From Leptospiraceae bacterium (GTDB lineage: Bacteria; Spirochaetota; Leptospiria; Leptospirales; Leptospiraceae): a stretch of 34,680 nucleotides of DNA. The DNA lies in the NCBI GenBank assembly GCA_947458405.1, contig CANGZW010000029.1, positions 1 to 34,680 on the forward strand. The letters run 5' to 3'. Under the pieces are notes generated by a model. That model saw only the letters and a program-made list of their open reading frames with translations, made no database searches and was not told the origin of the DNA. Made by a program: the position numbers and the translations under genes. Below are positions 1 through 34,170 of the stretch, in pieces. The stretch's first letter is position 1. Every line of letters begins with the position of its first letter.

Positions 1-861
1 ATATCCATAGATAATGCCCTTCTCTACTCCAATATGGAACATAGAGTTGAGGAAAGAACAAAAGAATTAAAAAAGGCTAATGATGAATTAGCAGATAAAA
101 ATAAGCATATAACAGATAGTATTCAATATGCAAAAACAATCCAAGAGGCAATTCTTCCCTCTAAGTCTTTTATAAAAACAAAATATGACGATTTCTTTAT
201 TAGTTTTTTTCCTAAGGATATTGTATCTGGAGATTTCTTTTGGTTCGCCGAGAATGGAGAATCTAGTTTTATAGCGGCTGTAGATTGCACGGGTCATGGA
301 GTTCCCGGTGCCTTCATGTCTATGATAGGATCTGCAATACTCAATCAAATAGTAAAGGAACTCAAGATTTATGAACCGGCAGATATATTAAACCACCTAA
401 ATCGGAATATTAGAATCGCCCTAAAACAAGATGTCAAAGAGGATGCATCTAGGGATGGAATGGAAATTTGTCTCTGTAGAGTTGATAAAGACAGGGTTGT
501 TTTCTCGGGTGGACATAGACCATTATTTATGGTAAAAAATGGAGAATTTCACACTTATAAAGGAGATAAGGACTCTATTGGTGGAAAACAAAAAACAGAT
601 GACAAATTTTTCACAAATACAGAAATCCCAATAGAAAAAGGCAAACGTACTGCAATATACTTAACAACAGATGGATTCCAGGATCAACCCAATTCAGAGG
701 GTAAAAAAATAGGGTCCAAAGGACTCCATGAAGTAATCATGAGATACAGTAATCTTGATGGAGAGACACAAAAATTAAAATTTGCCGAAGAGCTAAAAAA
801 CCATTCGGGAATTGAGCCCCAAAGAGATGACATTACTGTCATTGGAATTTTGTTTAATTGA
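1..861 (+). CDS. PP2C-type (SpoIIE) phosphatase, C-terminal part; SiaA-like
   Basis: The frame is open from base 1, so the N-terminus lies outside the window; the ATG at base 34 is internal. The first residues (IDNALLYSN) look like the last helix of a GAF domain. A coiled coil follows (EERTKEL to about base 125), then a SpoIIE/PP2C phosphatase domain. Acidic metal-site motifs are present: SGDFFW (about base 229), VDCTGHGVPGA (about base 280), TTDGF (about base 667) and the final DDITVIG. In this family such enzymes dephosphorylate Ser/Thr on a small switch protein. The next two genes encode a SiaB-like kinase and SiaC, so SiaC is the likely substrate; this is inferred from context. Pseudomonas SiaA is a HAMP membrane protein, whereas this one has a GAF-like input. 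The missing front may carry more domains, possibly a kinase/ATPase-GAF chain. Confidence 0.9.
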   Translation: MSIDNALLYSNMEHRVEERTKELKKANDELADKNKHITDSIQYAKTIQEAILPSKSFIKTKYDDFFISFFPKDIVSGDFFWFAENGESSFIAAVDCTGHGVPGAFMSMIGSAILNQIVKELKIYEPADILNHLNRNIRIALKQDVKEDASRDGMEICLCRVDKDRVVFSGGHRPLFMVKNGEFHTYKGDKDSIGGKQKTDDKFFTNTEIPIEKGKRTAIYLTTDGFQDQPNSEGKKIGSKGLHEVIMRYSNLDGETQKLKFAEELKNHSGIEPQRDDITVIGILFN

Positions 862-865
862 GGAT

Positions 866-1462
866 ATGGAAAAGTATATGGTTGACAGAATAAAAAGTAT
901 AACAGGGAATGTAAACGTGAATTCAGTAGATCTCTACGAGCAATATGAAGCAATTAGAGACCATAAAATCCTTTTATCATTCAAAGGTGCTATTTCTCAA
1001 GAAGTGGTAACTGAATTTGGCTCAATGATTCGTTCTTCTCTGAGTACAGAAACAAATACAAAAAAGATTTTTGCAGTATTTATCGAATTAGCACAAAATA
1101 TAGTAAGATACTCTGTTGAAAAAGAACTCAGTTCTGATGGCAACTCTGGAGTAGGAATCATCATCTTGAGAGAGAAAAAAGACTTTTTTTATCTGAGTTC
1201 GGGTAATTTAGTCTTAAAAGATAAGGTTCAGAAGATAAAAGATCGTTGTGAAACTGTTAATAAAATGAATAAAGACGAGTTAAAGGCTTATTATCAAGAA
1301 AAAATCCGTAATCCTACCGATGCTGATAGTAAGGGTGCAGGAGTGGGCTTAATTGATATTGCTAGAAAATCTGAAAATCCCCTACAGTGTGATATTACAC
1401 CTGTGGATGACTTCAATTCCTTTATGGCTCTAACAGTAACATTTAAAAAGGAAAATCAATAA
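866..1462 (+). CDS. siaB: SiaB-like protein kinase (DUF6272, GHKL-type fold)
   Basis: A 198-residue soluble protein. The stretch LYEQYEAIRDHKILLSFKG (from about residue 23) followed by ISQEV is typical of SiaB-family kinases. An N-box-like helix, ELAQNIVRYS (E74, N78), and a glycine-rich GAGVGLIDIA (157-166) outline a GHKL ATP-binding fold. In Pseudomonas aeruginosa, SiaB phosphorylates the switch protein SiaC, opposed by the PP2C SiaA. Here the gene begins 4 nt after the phosphatase stop, and its stop overlaps the siaC start by one base (TAATG). The start is uncertain: ATG 866 is very close to GAGG (860-863), ATG 878 is also in frame, and ATG 812 would overlap the phosphatase gene by 50 nt. 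The family assignment rests on motifs and gene order. Confidence 0.82.
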   Translation: MEKYMVDRIKSITGNVNVNSVDLYEQYEAIRDHKILLSFKGAISQEVVTEFGSMIRSSLSTETNTKKIFAVFIELAQNIVRYSVEKELSSDGNSGVGIIILREKKDFFYLSSGNLVLKDKVQKIKDRCETVNKMNKDELKAYYQEKIRNPTDADSKGAGVGLIDIARKSENPLQCDITPVDDFNSFMALTVTFKKENQ

Positions 1463-1833
1463 TGGAAAAAATAGTAATCCCAAGATCAAAATCCTCCCCG
1501 GAAGTAATAATGGATTATGATAATGGACTTTTGGAAATCATTGGAGAATCATATCCAGAAAATTCTTTGGGTTTTTATAAACCCGTTTACGATTGGTTAA
1601 ATAAATGCATTCAAGATAAAATTCAATTAAAGGTTAATTTTAAATTAAATTACTTTAATACCAGCTCTTCTAAATGTGTTATAGATATTCTTGATTCTTT
1701 AGATAAGTATTTTGTTAATGCAGGAAAAGTAGAAATCAATTGGTACTATGAAGAAGATGATGACGACATGAAAGAAACAGGAGAAGAATTCTCTAGCGAT
1801 CTAAAAGTTCCATTTCAACTAGTCTATTTCTAA
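1462..1833 (+). CDS. siaC: SiaC family switch protein (DUF1987)
   Basis: A 123-residue protein matching DUF1987 along its whole length. It opens IVIPRSKSSPEV, followed by GLLEIIGESYPEN, FYKPVYDWL and the core NFKLNYFNTSSSK. Thr67 in NTSSS lies one residue from the position of the regulated Thr68 of P. aeruginosa SiaC and is the likely phosphorylation site. In the known system, unphosphorylated SiaC binds and activates the diguanylate cyclase SiaD; SiaB phosphorylation blocks this and SiaA reverses it. The C-terminus carries an acidic run (EEDDDD). The start ATG overlaps the siaB stop, with AAGG about 9 nt upstream. A class III nucleotide cyclase, not a GGDEF protein, follows 6 nt downstream. 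Confidence 0.92.
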   Translation: MEKIVIPRSKSSPEVIMDYDNGLLEIIGESYPENSLGFYKPVYDWLNKCIQDKIQLKVNFKLNYFNTSSSKCVIDILDSLDKYFVNAGKVEINWYYEEDDDDMKETGEEFSSDLKVPFQLVYF

Positions 1834-1839
1834 ATTTTC

Positions 1840-3294
1840 ATGGAGAAACATGGAGATTCGGTAGAGGATTTTTTTAAAGATGAGCAGGATCTCCTTTTAC
1901 GGTTTAAAGAAAACTTAAATAATGATCTCGGTTTAGATACTCTCTCTGAAGAGTATAGACTCATGGGATCTAAGTACAATGCACTCTTAAAACAATCAAT
2001 TAAGTTAATGAAAATTGGCGATTCCAATCAGAGACGCCTAATTAAAACACAAAATGACTTAGTGGATACCAATTCTAAGTTAGAACTTTCCTATAATAAT
2101 TTAAAATCTTTGAGTCAATTGGGACAAACATTGACCTCCACTCTCGATACAAAAGAAATCATTTTAACTATTAATGAGCACATCGAAGATATCATGGAAT
2201 CAGATATCATAACAATAGGTATGTATGAAGAGGATAAAGGACTAATCAAATATAAATTTTTAGTAAAGAACCACAAATATATCCCATCCATGGCTTTTGA
2301 GAATTTGAATGAAGATAATCTATCTGCAAGATGTATCAAGAGTAATCATGAAATCATAATCAAAGACCTTGATAATGAATATCCCGACTTTGTAACACAA
2401 ATTCATAATTTATGGGATGAGATAACTCATTCTTTAGTATATTTACCTTTACAGGTTGAAAATAGATTAATCGGTATTTTTAGTGTACAGAGTTATAATA
2501 TAGATGCTTATAACTCGAATCAATTAAGTGTACTACGAACAATGGCATCATATATTGCTATTGCAATTGACAATGCAAATGCTTATAAACTACTTTCCAA
2601 AAAAAATAAACAGTTAAACGAACATCTTGAAAAAATACGTATTTTAAATAATCAACTCGAAGAAGAGATGAATAAATCAGAAAAGCTTCTGTTAAATATC
2701 TTACCAAAGAGTATAGCTGAAAGACTAAAAAAAGGCGAAAACATTATCTCGGATTATTTTCCGGAAGCGAGTGTTCTCTTTGCTGATATCGCAGGGTTTA
2801 CTAAAATGAGTTCCAAAATGTCCTCACAGGAAAAATTAGTAGATATATTAAATGAAATTTTTTCAAGTTTTGACAGGGTAGTTAATAAGTATGGTTTAGA
2901 AAAAATAAAAACAATTGGTGATTGCTATATGTTAGCAGGTGGAATTCCTGTTGCTAGTCCTGATCATTTAGAAAGAACATGTGATGCTTCTTTGGAAATG
3001 ATAGATACTTTCAAAAAACTTCAAGAAGAACTACACATTGAAGTTGCGATACGAATTGGAATAAATGCAGGTCCCATAGTAGCAGGTGTGATTGGTAAAA
3101 ATAAATTTGTGTACGACTTATGGGGTGATACAGTAAATATTGCTTCCCGCATGGAATCATATGGATTTATTGGAAGAATTAATTGTTCAGAATATGTATT
3201 TGAAAAACTAAAAGATAAATATACTTTTGAGGATCGCGGAGAATTTGAAGTAAAGGGGAAAGGCACTATGAGAATGTACTTCCTCAATAGATGA
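1840..3294 (+). CDS. GAF-class III adenylate cyclase, putative SiaC target
   Basis: A 484-residue soluble protein. Residues 1-90 are helical and charged, ending in a coiled coil, and include YNALLKQSIKLMKIGDSNQR (46-65). A GAF domain spans about 95-245, a signalling coiled coil 250-280 and a class III cyclase 285-484. The cyclase has metal aspartates D316 (LFADIAGFT) and D361 (TIGDCY), base-selecting K357 and D426 (VYDLWGD), and transition-state N433 and R437. The Lys/Asp pair predicts ATP and therefore cAMP production. All catalytic residues are present. The gene starts 6 nt after siaC with no clear Shine-Dalgarno, so it may be translationally coupled. It occupies the place of SiaD in the Pseudomonas operon. 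That SiaC binds residues 1-90 is an inference. Confidence 0.92.
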   Translation: MEKHGDSVEDFFKDEQDLLLRFKENLNNDLGLDTLSEEYRLMGSKYNALLKQSIKLMKIGDSNQRRLIKTQNDLVDTNSKLELSYNNLKSLSQLGQTLTSTLDTKEIILTINEHIEDIMESDIITIGMYEEDKGLIKYKFLVKNHKYIPSMAFENLNEDNLSARCIKSNHEIIIKDLDNEYPDFVTQIHNLWDEITHSLVYLPLQVENRLIGIFSVQSYNIDAYNSNQLSVLRTMASYIAIAIDNANAYKLLSKKNKQLNEHLEKIRILNNQLEEEMNKSEKLLLNILPKSIAERLKKGENIISDYFPEASVLFADIAGFTKMSSKMSSQEKLVDILNEIFSSFDRVVNKYGLEKIKTIGDCYMLAGGIPVASPDHLERTCDASLEMIDTFKKLQEELHIEVAIRIGINAGPIVAGVIGKNKFVYDLWGDTVNIASRMESYGFIGRINCSEYVFEKLKDKYTFEDRGEFEVKGKGTMRMYFLNR

Positions 3295-17632: not shown

Positions 17633-19912
17633 TTATTTTACAATTTGAATGTATTTACTAAAATCCGAATCGTCAACCAGTCCCAAAAGTTCATATATTT
17701 TTACCTGCATATTCTTTCCCTTCACTTTTACAATATCCAATTCTCTAGCGTATATTCTATCTTTTACTCTTTGGTAGGTAAATTCAGAAATAATAATTTT
17801 GGTTGAATAATTTTTATTTATCTGTTCTAAACGAGAACCTAAATTTACAGAATCCCCCATACATGTATAATTCATTCGATGATTACTTCCCATATTTCCT
17901 AAGATTGCTAATCCAGTGTTTATACCTATTCTAATCTCTAACTTTGGCAAACCCCTACTATCCCAATTGTTCCTTAATTCTTCCAATTTTTTTATTTGAG
18001 CCAAAGCAGCCACACAACAATAATAAGGATGCTCTTCTAAATAGAGGGGAGCACCCCAAAAAGCCATGATTGCATCTCCCATATATTTATCGATTGTACC
18101 CTTATATTCTATTATAGAATCAGTCATAACAGATAAATATTCATTTAATTGACTGACCAATTCTTCAGGACTCATCGCTTCAGAAAGAGAGGTAAATCCA
18201 ACAATATCTGAAAAAAAAACAGTGACTTCCCTCTTTGCTCCACCGAGCTCTGCCTTTTCGGGATTTTTTAATAATTCATCTACAATTTCTTTGGATACAA
18301 ACTTGGAAAATGTACTACGAATATATTTAACATTCTCCTCTTCGGTCATAATTTTATATCCATTTAAAGAAACCAATATTGTAAAAATATTTAATATTAC
18401 ACTTGGAATTTGAAGTATGTAAGTATATTTTAAAAATAAAAAAATGGACAGAACAAAATATGAGATCATAATTATAAAAAACAATAAAAAACTCAAATTA
18501 GTAGAGTATTTGTATAAACTAAAGGTAACTAAAAATCCCATAAATAATAGAATTAATAATTTTTCCAATTCAGTTGGATTTTTAACAAAATTTTGATTTA
18601 AAACTGTATTTAATGTATGAGCATGATGCTCTATGCCAGACATTTCCCCGTAAGGTGAAAGATGAGTATCTTTTGCTGTACCCATACCAGTTGCGTAGTA
18701 CATTGCTAATAAAAAAATATTTTTTTCATAGATAGCTACTGATTCATTTGACCAATCATTTGCTACATCATATAAATCTTCGTCCCGAAAACAAAACAAT
18801 GATCCAGAGAAGTTAATTTCCACCTGTCCACTCAAATCTATGGGTATCACAATTTCTCTTTGGGGATTAGGAAATTTCATTATATCAGACTCAATTCCAG
18901 CTCTATCCACAATATTAATTTTTGGTATATTTTTTAATTTGATGTATTTCCCTATGACAACTTCTGTATCCTTAACTAAATCAATATTAAAATATTTACA
19001 TAGTATCACAAGATCAACAGAAGGATAGTAGATATAAGAATTTTTGCTATAAATTTTTGCTACTAATGGCATTCTTCTATTCACTAAATTTTCTATTTTT
19101 TTTATATTTGCAAAACCCAAACCGGCTACGTTTTGTGAAACTCCCAATATAGGAGGACTCGGGGATTCCAACCAGACGATTCCAGAATTATTTGTATCAA
19201 TTACATTAGTGAGTTTAAATTTATTTAATACTTGAACTTTTAAGTCATAATCTTCGATGGAATATCGTGTTACAGAGGATGTCTCAATGCTATAATCTAC
19301 AATTATATTTTTACTACCCTCTAAGGAATCAGCGAGAATAGTAGCCTCCTCGCCTTTTTCATCCAGGAAAAATATGTCCAAAAAGAGTAAATTATTAGTA
19401 TTTTTAAATTTATTTATAACTTTAGCATACTCTTGCCAATTAATAGGCCATTTTCCATCTAGTTTTTCAATAGTCTCTGTTTTAATTCCAATAATTTGAA
19501 TGTCTTTGCGGGTATTTTCAGGAGGGTCAAACTTTTCAATGTAACCCTGCTCGGTATCAAAGATACTTTTGCCTTTTTTATTCCTAAATGCTTTGTACCT
19601 CCAGGAAATAGAGCTTTCTTCAATATTTATTAATAGAGGTAAAAAATGGCCTGTTGAATAAATTAAAAAAGTTACAAATGTACTGATCCATAAAAAACCA
19701 GAGACCTTAGTATTTAATGAAAAATTGCGTAAAGCCTTATAACTTCCATATGAAAATAATATAAAAACGATATAAAATAAATAAAAATAAATTTTAGATT
19801 CAATATAAGCAGTTGTAATACTAATTATAATTCCTAAAATAGAAAAGAGATAAACATAAAAAATAAAAACATGTAATATCTTTTTTATTTTGGAAATATT
19901 ATCCGTTTTCAT
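17633..19912 (-). CDS. CHASE2-domain membrane adenylate cyclase
   Basis: 759 residues. N-terminal hydrophobic segments (about 11-35, 41-58, 72-95) precede an extracytoplasmic CHASE2-type sensor (about 100-440, including IEKLDGKWPINW and FLDIFFLDE). Three further transmembrane helices follow (about 451-470, 474-495, 498-517), then a class III cyclase (about 560-745). Catalytic residues are complete: D569 (FFSDIVGFT), D613 (YMGDAIM), K609, T683 (NYTCMGD), N690 and R694. The Lys/Thr pair is the common bacterial adenylate cyclase variant. The ATG overlaps the end of trpA by 14 nt, with AGGA close upstream, and dxs follows after 3 nt. It lacks the TPR-like tail often found C-terminal in CHASE2 cyclases. 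The sensed signal is unknown. Confidence 0.95.
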   Translation of the reverse strand: MKTDNISKIKKILHVFIFYVYLFSILGIIISITTAYIESKIYFYLFYIVFILFSYGSYKALRNFSLNTKVSGFLWISTFVTFLIYSTGHFLPLLINIEESSISWRYKAFRNKKGKSIFDTEQGYIEKFDPPENTRKDIQIIGIKTETIEKLDGKWPINWQEYAKVINKFKNTNNLLFLDIFFLDEKGEEATILADSLEGSKNIIVDYSIETSSVTRYSIEDYDLKVQVLNKFKLTNVIDTNNSGIVWLESPSPPILGVSQNVAGLGFANIKKIENLVNRRMPLVAKIYSKNSYIYYPSVDLVILCKYFNIDLVKDTEVVIGKYIKLKNIPKINIVDRAGIESDIMKFPNPQREIVIPIDLSGQVEINFSGSLFCFRDEDLYDVANDWSNESVAIYEKNIFLLAMYYATGMGTAKDTHLSPYGEMSGIEHHAHTLNTVLNQNFVKNPTELEKLLILLFMGFLVTFSLYKYSTNLSFLLFFIIMISYFVLSIFLFLKYTYILQIPSVILNIFTILVSLNGYKIMTEEENVKYIRSTFSKFVSKEIVDELLKNPEKAELGGAKREVTVFFSDIVGFTSLSEAMSPEELVSQLNEYLSVMTDSIIEYKGTIDKYMGDAIMAFWGAPLYLEEHPYYCCVAALAQIKKLEELRNNWDSRGLPKLEIRIGINTGLAILGNMGSNHRMNYTCMGDSVNLGSRLEQINKNYSTKIIISEFTYQRVKDRIYARELDIVKVKGKNMQVKIYELLGLVDDSDFSKYIQIVK

Positions 19913-32231: not shown

Positions 32232-33319
32232 GGGTAACGTGGATCTTCCTTAGGAGAGTCCGGCCAAATTATATCATCAAAGGCGGGATCATCCTGTAGT
32301 CTATTCTCATCATAGTCTTTTTGTTTTATTCTATATTGTATAGTAACTTTTTCAGGTATCACAGAAAGTATCTCAATCGATTTTAAATTATTGGATTTTG
32401 TTACCCTCACTTTTCCACTGACGGGTAGATTATTGGGGATGATTTTTTTTGTGCGGAAGTCATAAGAATAATTACAGGGAACTGTAGCTTTAATTCCTTG
32501 AAAAATTTCTATATTATTGAATGGGGTAGATGAATTAAATTTAATTGATACCTCATCCTGTGATAGTATTGCAATGAGATTATCATTTTTACCCTCACAA
32601 CGTAGAGGAATTCCCCCAAAAATTTGCTCACCAGTTCCACTAGAGACACGAAGTATGTTAATTCTAAGTTGATAATCCCTAATTCCTCCTATGATTGTAA
32701 TACCTTTGGGAGGTTCGAGGGGTCGAAGACTTTGGATTGAGGACTCTTTTGTATTACCTAAATTAACTTTTCCTAAAGAATATTTGGAAATTGTATCCAG
32801 AATTTCTTTTGTTCCACTCAATGTTATCATATTCGGTTTAATCGAGTAGGATGTTTTTACTAAATTGGGAGGAAGATCCCCTTCAAAATTTACATCTACG
32901 GGAACACTCTTAGAAAAAGAATGTTCAACATTTACAGGAATGGTCTCATTTTCCGGAACAACTTTTATTCGGGGAGAAGTCCCCCAAAATTTTTTGACTT
33001 CAATAATATTCTCTCCCACTCTTAAGTCATTTTGGTCTATGGTGACTTTTAAAAATTGAGAATGATAATTAACGAGATCTTTAAATCCTTCTACCTTAAC
33101 TTTTAGGGTTTTGGGATTATTTTTTCCATAGATAAAGGAAGCTGAAAGACGGGGATATTCGATGGGAACTTCTATTGTTTTGACTGTCAATTTTGATGCT
33201 TGTAAATTTAAATAGAATATTGCAGCAACAACGAAGGATAAGACTTTAGCAATCCAATTATGAAAAATAATTTTTAATATAAATTTTAGACCCGATGAAA
33301 TCTTAGATAAAAAACTCAA
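32228..33319 (-). CDS. cdaR: YbbR-domain protein CdaR, regulator of CdaA
   Basis: 363 residues. An N-terminal transmembrane helix (about 23-41, WIAKVLSFVVAAIFYLNL) is followed by several YbbR repeats: TVKTIEVPIEYPRL, VKVEGFKDLVNY, HSFSKSVPVDVNFEGDLPPNLV, MITLSGTKEILDTISKYSLGKVNLG, and a third set ending VRVTKSNNLKSIEILSVIPEKVTIQY. The C-terminal tail is acidic and Pro-rich. In Firmicutes CdaR binds and modulates the diadenylate cyclase CdaA. The TTG start overlaps the cdaA stop as TTGA, with GAGG 7 nt upstream. Confidence 0.9.
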   Translation of the reverse strand: MSFLSKISSGLKFILKIIFHNWIAKVLSFVVAAIFYLNLQASKLTVKTIEVPIEYPRLSASFIYGKNNPKTLKVKVEGFKDLVNYHSQFLKVTIDQNDLRVGENIIEVKKFWGTSPRIKVVPENETIPVNVEHSFSKSVPVDVNFEGDLPPNLVKTSYSIKPNMITLSGTKEILDTISKYSLGKVNLGNTKESSIQSLRPLEPPKGITIIGGIRDYQLRINILRVSSGTGEQIFGGIPLRCEGKNDNLIAILSQDEVSIKFNSSTPFNNIEIFQGIKATVPCNYSYDFRTKKIIPNNLPVSGKVRVTKSNNLKSIEILSVIPEKVTIQYRIKQKDYDENRLQDDPAFDDIIWPDSPKEDPRYP

Positions 33320-34170
33320 ATCAATTCCTCAACTTTTTTGATAGATTGATTTTTAGATTCATCATTATTACTGCTTTGATTTGATTTAACCCTTGCCTGT
33401 AAATAAGTAAGTAATAATGTTTTTAATTCAAAGGGCTTGATAGGATGAATCATTTCTCCATTAAAACAAATAGAAATTTCTCCCCTTTCTTCCGAGGTCA
33501 CTATGATCACTGCGTCCGTTTCTTCGCTAAGACCGAGAGCTGATCTGTGTCTTGCGCCCATAGTTGCGGCTCTTTCTAAATTATCACTTAAGGGTAAGTA
33601 GGAGGAGGCAGAGGCAATTCTATTTTGTTCAATGATTACTGCACCATCATGGAGGGGAGAATTTTTTTTGAATATAGTTAAAATAAGGCTCGAGGAGACA
33701 ATAGCATCCAACTGTACTGATCTTTCTACTATATCTCTTAAACTAATATCTTTAGTTATTGCAATGATGGCTCCCGTTTTGGAGTTTGCCATTGTCTTTA
33801 CGGCATCTACTATCTCATCTAATTCAAAACTGGGCTTCATTAAAAATATTTTAATTAGTTTTGATTTTGTAAAATCCGAAAATACCCTTCGCAGTTCAGG
33901 CTGAAGTAATACAATAACAAGAAATAATAATGCAGGTCTAAAACTATCTATTAACCAATCCAATAATTCTAATTCATAATAAGAACTGACAGCTCCTAAT
34001 AATAGTATCACACCAAGACCGATAAATAATTGCAATGCTCTAGTTTTACGTAGAGTAATGTATAAAAAGTAAAAAATTACACTTACAATAAATATATCAA
34101 TGAATGTTCTATTAAAGGAAATATTATAAAAATCTAGATAAAATATATTTCTTAGATTGTCTAAATCCAA
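33316..34170 (-). CDS. cdaA: diadenylate cyclase CdaA (c-di-AMP synthase)
   Basis: 284 residues. Three transmembrane helices at the N-terminus (about 22-100) precede the DisA_N/DAC domain, which condenses two ATP into c-di-AMP. The catalytic motifs are present: SPLHDGAVII (DGA) and GARHRSALGLSEETDAVIIVTSEE (RHR). The usual GTRHRAA reads GARHRSA. A Ser/Asn/Lys-rich tail follows. The start is TTG 34170 with GGGG about 9 nt upstream and 3 nt after the dapB stop. Pairing with cdaR matches the Firmicutes arrangement; glmM is absent. c-di-AMP typically controls potassium and osmolyte balance and the cell wall. Confidence 0.96.
   Translation of the reverse strand: MDLDNLRNIFYLDFYNISFNRTFIDIFIVSVIFYFLYITLRKTRALQLFIGLGVILLLGAVSSYYELELLDWLIDSFRPALLFLVIVLLQPELRRVFSDFTKSKLIKIFLMKPSFELDEIVDAVKTMANSKTGAIIAITKDISLRDIVERSVQLDAIVSSSLILTIFKKNSPLHDGAVIIEQNRIASASSYLPLSDNLERAATMGARHRSALGLSEETDAVIIVTSEERGEISICFNGEMIHPIKPFELKTLLLTYLQARVKSNQSSNNDESKNQSIKKVEELI
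33327..33330 (-). promoter_or_regulatory. Shine-Dalgarno for the cdaR TTG start
   Basis: GAGG on the minus strand, 7 nt before TTG 33319, inside the cdaA end. It indicates cdaA-cdaR coupling. Confidence 0.75.

Follow-up and report, generated by a model that had tools for sequence, protein, structure and literature searches.

The window analysed here, a stretch of 34,680 bp, is the entire contig C29 of a 3.94 Mb draft genome. Its first 3,294 positions hold a run of four genes, SiaA-SiaB-SiaC-cyclase, with the following features.

1..861, + strand: SiaA-like PP2C phosphatase, C-terminal part only (SpoIIE, 63.6 bits; 5' end cut off where the contig begins)
866..1462, + strand: SiaB-family anti-sigma-type kinase (Pfam DUF6272, 145.5 bits; start uncertain)
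1462..1833, + strand: SiaC (DUF1987) phosphoprotein switch (PF09345, 145 bits, cut-off 24.5)
1660..1662, + strand: codon for the predicted phosphosite of SiaC, Thr67 (alignment with Thr68 of P. aeruginosa SiaC)
1840..3294, + strand: stalk-GAF-class III adenylate cyclase (Guanylate_cyc, 198 bits; GAF_2, 56.5 bits; catalytic residues)
1933..2136, + strand: predicted continuous stalk helix of the cyclase, aa 32-99 (AF2 secondary structure)
1975..2055, + strand: putative SiaC-docking motif within the stalk, cyclase aa 46-72 (held-out profile, PDB match to SiaD, conservation peak)
2143..2571, + strand: GAF domain of the cyclase, aa 102-244 (Pfam GAF_2)
2758..3288, + strand: class III cyclase catalytic domain, IIIa-like, with K357/D426 (PF00211)

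The initial annotation had described a PP2C phosphatase, SiaB, SiaC and a GAF-class III cyclase as adjacent plus-strand genes. This held against Pfam, NCBIfam and the coordinates, with no intergenic gap longer than 6 nt. The SiaC start codon overlaps the final base of the SiaB stop (1462), and the cyclase starts 6 nt past the SiaC stop. Two of the four genes had to be amended. The SiaA gene is truncated at the 5' end, since the window is the whole of the contig. The SiaB start is ambiguous and may be TTG812, within SiaA, or ATG866.

The identities of the genes are established by sequence comparison; NCBIfam names the first three products SiaA, SiaB family and SiaC. The SiaA-like fragment covers residues 384-655 of the 658-position NCBIfam model. 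Its SpoIIE/PP2C domain spans aa 89-283 (Pfam) and has the metal-binding motifs SGD, DCTGHG, TDG and RDD. The complete gene is seen in a sister genome (L034), where it encodes a 1,775 aa protein kinase-AAA ATPase-GAF-PP2C protein, whereas SiaA of P. aeruginosa is a HAMP membrane protein. SiaB scores 185 bits with the NCBIfam SiaB_fam_kinase model (cut-off 85) and 125 bits with the strict SiaB equivalog, under the cut-off of 225. SiaC likewise stays below the cut-off of its NCBIfam equivalog (110 bits against 150), and is therefore regarded as a member of the SiaC family and not as a strict orthologue. It matches P. aeruginosa SiaC at 3e-20, with Thr67 paired to Thr68, the residue that is phosphorylated in P. 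aeruginosa (PMC8457831), and its AF2 model superposes on SiaC structures at 1.0-1.6 Å.

The claim that the cyclase has a full catalytic set together with the Lys/Asp pair for ATP was also confirmed. The class III set is complete: the metal-binding residues Asp316 and Asp361, the adenine pair Lys357/Asp426, and the transition-state pair Asn433/Arg437. As Lys357/Asp426 is the ATP-selecting pair, we infer that the product is cAMP. The top PDB matches are class III adenylate cyclases such as mycobacterial Cya and mammalian AC5, which have the same catalytic domain and ATP-selecting residues. The alignments with PDB class III cyclases are limited to the catalytic and linker regions, and none extends over the stalk.

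The locus has much in common with SiaABCD of P. aeruginosa (7E6G): a PP2C domain (in the window from a truncated gene), a SiaB kinase, a SiaC protein bearing the NTSS phospho-Thr motif, and an output gene that comes next. The difference is in the output enzyme, which is the GGDEF diguanylate cyclase SiaD in SiaABCD and a GAF-class III adenylate cyclase here. No GGDEF domain was found in the window cyclase with Pfam, its output domain being PF00211. Lacking a GGDEF output, the locus belongs to the SiaABC family but stands outside SiaABCD. The earlier suggestion that the output enzyme has been replaced thus held, but the cyclase proved to be only one of at least five stalk-bearing output classes.

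The N-terminus of the window cyclase contains YNALLKQSIKLMKIGDSNQ (aa 46-64), which aligns with the SiaC-binding stalk motif of P. aeruginosa SiaD. An N-terminal stalk carrying this motif is thus common to both enzymes, with one motif per chain in the window cyclase against two in SiaD. Ser82 of SiaD, which touches SiaC Thr68, corresponds to Gly60 in the window cyclase, and Gln86 of SiaD is retained as Gln64. We built a held-out profile from 13 non-cyclase stalk segments, all from SiaC loci (histidine kinases, PP2C, GGDEF and one lone stalk). It gives 33-51 bits for eight SiaC-linked cyclases and 32-63 bits for nine stalk cyclases identified afterwards. NCBIfam's SiaD model matches two other SiaC-linked cyclases, in the stalk only. 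The homology of the stalks is thus shown.

One could object that the stalk is a generic coiled-coil dimerisation helix and that the neighbourhood of SiaC reflects loose co-regulation without binding. In favour of this, the stalk region is predicted as a single long helix. An AF2 model of the in-frame read-through of SiaC and the cyclase consists of SiaC plus a long helix (mean pLDDT 87.7, pTM 0.58), with pLDDT of 91-97 in blocks from cyclase aa 65 onward and lower values upstream. Four observations speak against the objection. First, the held-out profile misses the remaining 24 class III cyclases encoded in this genome, which score at most 2.3 bits. Second, when a profile of all 20 stalks, SiaD excluded, was compared with 177,635 PDB sequences, SiaD (7e6g) was the top match and the only significant one (E 1.2e-5; the runner-up had 0.083). 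Third, in an alignment with two relatives 74% of aa 46-72 are invariant vs 11% of aa 1-45, and the best 20-residue windows (within aa 51-74) reach 90%, equal to the active site. Fourth, the distribution of the stalk over genomes follows that of SiaC. Strong SiaC genes were found in 15 of the 296 genomes of the phylum, and the stalk is present in 14 of these 15 compared with one of the 281 others. The former figure is partly in-sample because several of those genomes supplied stalk seeds; the latter is not affected. A generic coiled coil is therefore very unlikely, and we regard the stalk as a putative SiaC-docking segment.

The contact between the two proteins was assessed by covariation. For P. 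aeruginosa, PMC8457831 names R103 of SiaC and D91 of SiaD as bonded residues, taken here as a salt bridge. Among 29 non-redundant SiaC-stalk pairs, the columns of these two residues rank third of 2,610 column pairs (charge anticorrelation r -0.65, permutation p 3e-4; the permutations are uncorrected for shared ancestry). The top-ranked pair again involves SiaC R103, here with a stalk column at one helix turn's distance. An Asp in SiaC goes mostly with Lys or Arg in the stalk, and an Arg in SiaC with Asp, Glu or a neutral residue there. Covariation of the interface is thus shown from sequence. The window pair has the charges swapped in comparison with P. aeruginosa: Asp102 in SiaC and Lys69 in the cyclase. 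Among 24 SiaC-stalk pairs collected later, ten have opposite charges and none has like charges (p 0.2). This set is consistent with the trend but not significant by itself because it varies too little. Direct binding of SiaC to the cyclase is strongly supported by the conserved Thr together with the stalk and the charge-swapped salt bridge, but this is an inference from sequence alone, with no biochemistry and no coordinates of the complex.

Two conditions that would have refuted the initial annotation were checked, and neither did so: that the pairing exists only in this genome, and that SiaC acts on a distant GGDEF protein instead of the cyclase. The first is not the case, since the recurrence of the pairing in other genomes and phyla is shown. 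There are exactly two strong SiaC genes in the window's genome, each directly followed by a class III cyclase. The second locus, on contig C66, is SiaB-SiaC-cyclase, and its cyclase (326 aa) has no GAF domain. Given 26 class III cyclase matches and about 3,800 genes (an estimate), the probability that both SiaC genes adjoin a cyclase by chance is near 5e-5. The order SiaA-SiaB-SiaC-stalk-GAF-cyclase is kept in another genus of the same family, in three genomes (L034, L036 and L037 in G004, G005 and G007). SiaC-cyclase pairs occur also in three other families of Spirochaetota (L035, L038 and L039 in G133, G019 and G078). Beyond this phylum, SiaC-linked stalk cyclases were found in the Bacteroidota/Chlorobiota sample of G298, a Chlorobiales MAG (L230, L231, L232), and in the Acidobacteriota sample of G299 (L255), which shares genomes with the sample of the Chloracidobacterium genome G296. 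A stalk-GAF-cyclase without SiaC linkage is present in two sister genomes, G006 and G007 (L173, L177).

Chance neighbourhood, contamination and misassembly were considered as well, and were ruled out because the synteny is identical in the three genomes of another genus.

Lone SiaC genes without an adjoining SiaB were observed at L043, L044 and L045; G006 and G007 are among the genomes concerned.

The second possibility amounts to a rival explanation, namely that the cyclase is a passenger and SiaC of this operon controls a distant diguanylate cyclase. In its support, proven control by SiaC is limited to diguanylate cyclases (PMC8457831, PMC7647112). However, a recognisable stalk was found in exactly two proteins of the window's genome, both of them SiaC-linked cyclases, and in no other protein, GGDEF or otherwise. 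Hence there is no stalk-bearing GGDEF protein that could serve as an alternative target. The recurrence of the SiaC-cyclase linkage across unrelated lineages also counts against a passenger, and we consider this explanation very improbable.

The best explanation of the locus, and a likely one, is a SiaABC partner switch with a cAMP-forming output; binding, phosphorylation, cAMP production and activation are all inferred. Unphosphorylated SiaC would clamp the cyclase at aa 46-72 of its N-terminal coiled-coil stalk, as SiaC does on the SiaD stalk. SiaB would phosphorylate SiaC at Thr67 and release it from the cyclase, which is the off state, and SiaA would dephosphorylate SiaC and turn the system on again. 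SiaC stabilises the parallel active dimer of SiaD (PMC8457831). By analogy, its binding to the cyclase may stabilise a parallel dimer, align the two catalytic domains and raise cAMP. With one motif per chain, two SiaC molecules per cyclase dimer are predicted, vs four on SiaD. The GAF domain may provide a second input, and 29 matches to cNMP-binding domains in the genome are possible readers of cAMP. The proposal of the initial annotation that SiaC tunes cAMP is thus supported at the level of predicted binding; the effect on cAMP and its direction are inferences.

The sign could be the opposite: docked SiaC would keep the cyclase inactive, or merely tether it, and phosphorylation would free the enzyme. 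Indeed, activation rests on the analogy with SiaD alone, and either sign is conceivable for the histidine kinases, Ser/Thr kinases and phosphatases that bear the stalk. Against this stand the SiaD precedent (PMC8457831) and the fact that class III cyclases are active as parallel dimers. We therefore consider the opposite sign unlikely and prefer activation by unphosphorylated SiaC.

The stalk is not restricted to cyclases. It is found, usually near SiaC, N-terminal to GGDEF, histidine kinase, SpoIIE-type PP2C, Ser/Thr protein kinase and class III cyclase domains. Pseudomonadota were covered by five plasmid loci and not by whole genomes, and one Bacteroidota plasmid locus was also included. In four of the Pseudomonadota plasmids a stalk-bearing GGDEF gene lies downstream of SiaC, with a histidine kinase in addition in Azospirillum; in the fifth an annotated GGDEF gene follows SiaC. 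Because the same stalk heads several enzyme classes, SiaABC can be described as a modular switch with exchangeable outputs.

Stalk cyclases include both IIIa-type (Lys/Asp) and IIIb-type (Lys/Thr) enzymes. On the tree of catalytic domains the stalk must have been gained or lost eight times, and for four of these changes well-supported branches leave no alternative. The closest relative of the C66 cyclase on this tree is an unlinked cyclase from its own genome (support 100/97). It follows that the stalk has apparently been joined to cyclases more than once. A bolder reading, which we also find likely, is that SiaABC is a general plug-in switch, in which one short docking stalk has been repeatedly joined to unrelated outputs, so that c-di-GMP, cAMP or a phosphorelay is controlled in different bacteria. 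The outputs would be diguanylate cyclases, class IIIa and IIIb adenylate cyclases, histidine kinases, Ser/Thr kinases, PP2C phosphatases and free-standing stalks; an HD phosphodiesterase can be added only as a possibility.

Phosphorylation-controlled small switch proteins that act on nucleotide cyclases are known from HsbA-HsbD and BgrV-BgrR (cited in PMC8457831). Unlike SiaC, these switches are STAS and not DUF1987 proteins, and their product is c-di-GMP, made by diguanylate cyclases. The one paper found that mentions DUF1987 suggests in a general way that these proteins modulate adjacent ones. In the literature searched, which did not cover a 2020 EMBO J paper, we found nothing that connects SiaC with an adenylate cyclase, histidine kinase or Ser/Thr kinase output, in agreement with the initial annotation, which knew of no such system. 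SiaC appears in the literature found only as the activator of one diguanylate cyclase. Sequence evidence from several phyla now connects it with cAMP synthesis, and the enzymes that it controls can be predicted from the sequence of a single docking helix. This suggests a function for many DUF1987 proteins and a testable partner-switch route to cAMP and phosphorelays, with the stalk as a transferable part that could couple one switch with different enzymes.

A scan of the collection with a narrow SiaC profile returned mostly Bacteroidota SiaB-SiaC loci without an adjoining output. SiaB-SiaC pairs at L060-L133 (mostly Bacteroidota) have a GRSIPENS motif in SiaC and likewise no output gene next to them. 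No stalk protein was found in the three genomes of this type that were checked (L069, L098, L125), so SiaC may possibly act differently there.

Several other arrangements were observed. In Acidobacteriota-type genomes SiaC occurs with stalk-bearing PknB-type Ser/Thr protein kinases (L189 1429-2664, L185, L186, L196, L198, L203, L204), apparently an undescribed kind of SiaC output. Stalk-only proteins of 77-99 aa adjoin SiaC among L235, L237, L239, L248, L040 (1212-1487) and L236, and one protein of this group has a stalk followed by hydrophobic, membrane-like segments. All these might be free adaptors or decoys. In genome G011, which has no recognisable SiaC, a stalk-like helix is fused to an HD domain (HD_5, HD-GYP-like; L174 871-1743, - strand), and the gene adjoins STAS-like and HATPase-like genes.

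The window contains two further cyclase genes. A second class III cyclase, linked to CHASE2 and without the SiaC stalk, lies at 17633-19912 (- strand) in an operon-like housekeeping run (dxs, trpA, trpB, proS, rseP, dxr, cdsA, uppS). At the far end of the contig, a CdaA-type diadenylate cyclase gene is found together with YbbR (33316-34170, - strand), and thus one contig is inferred to code for the synthesis of both cAMP and c-di-AMP.
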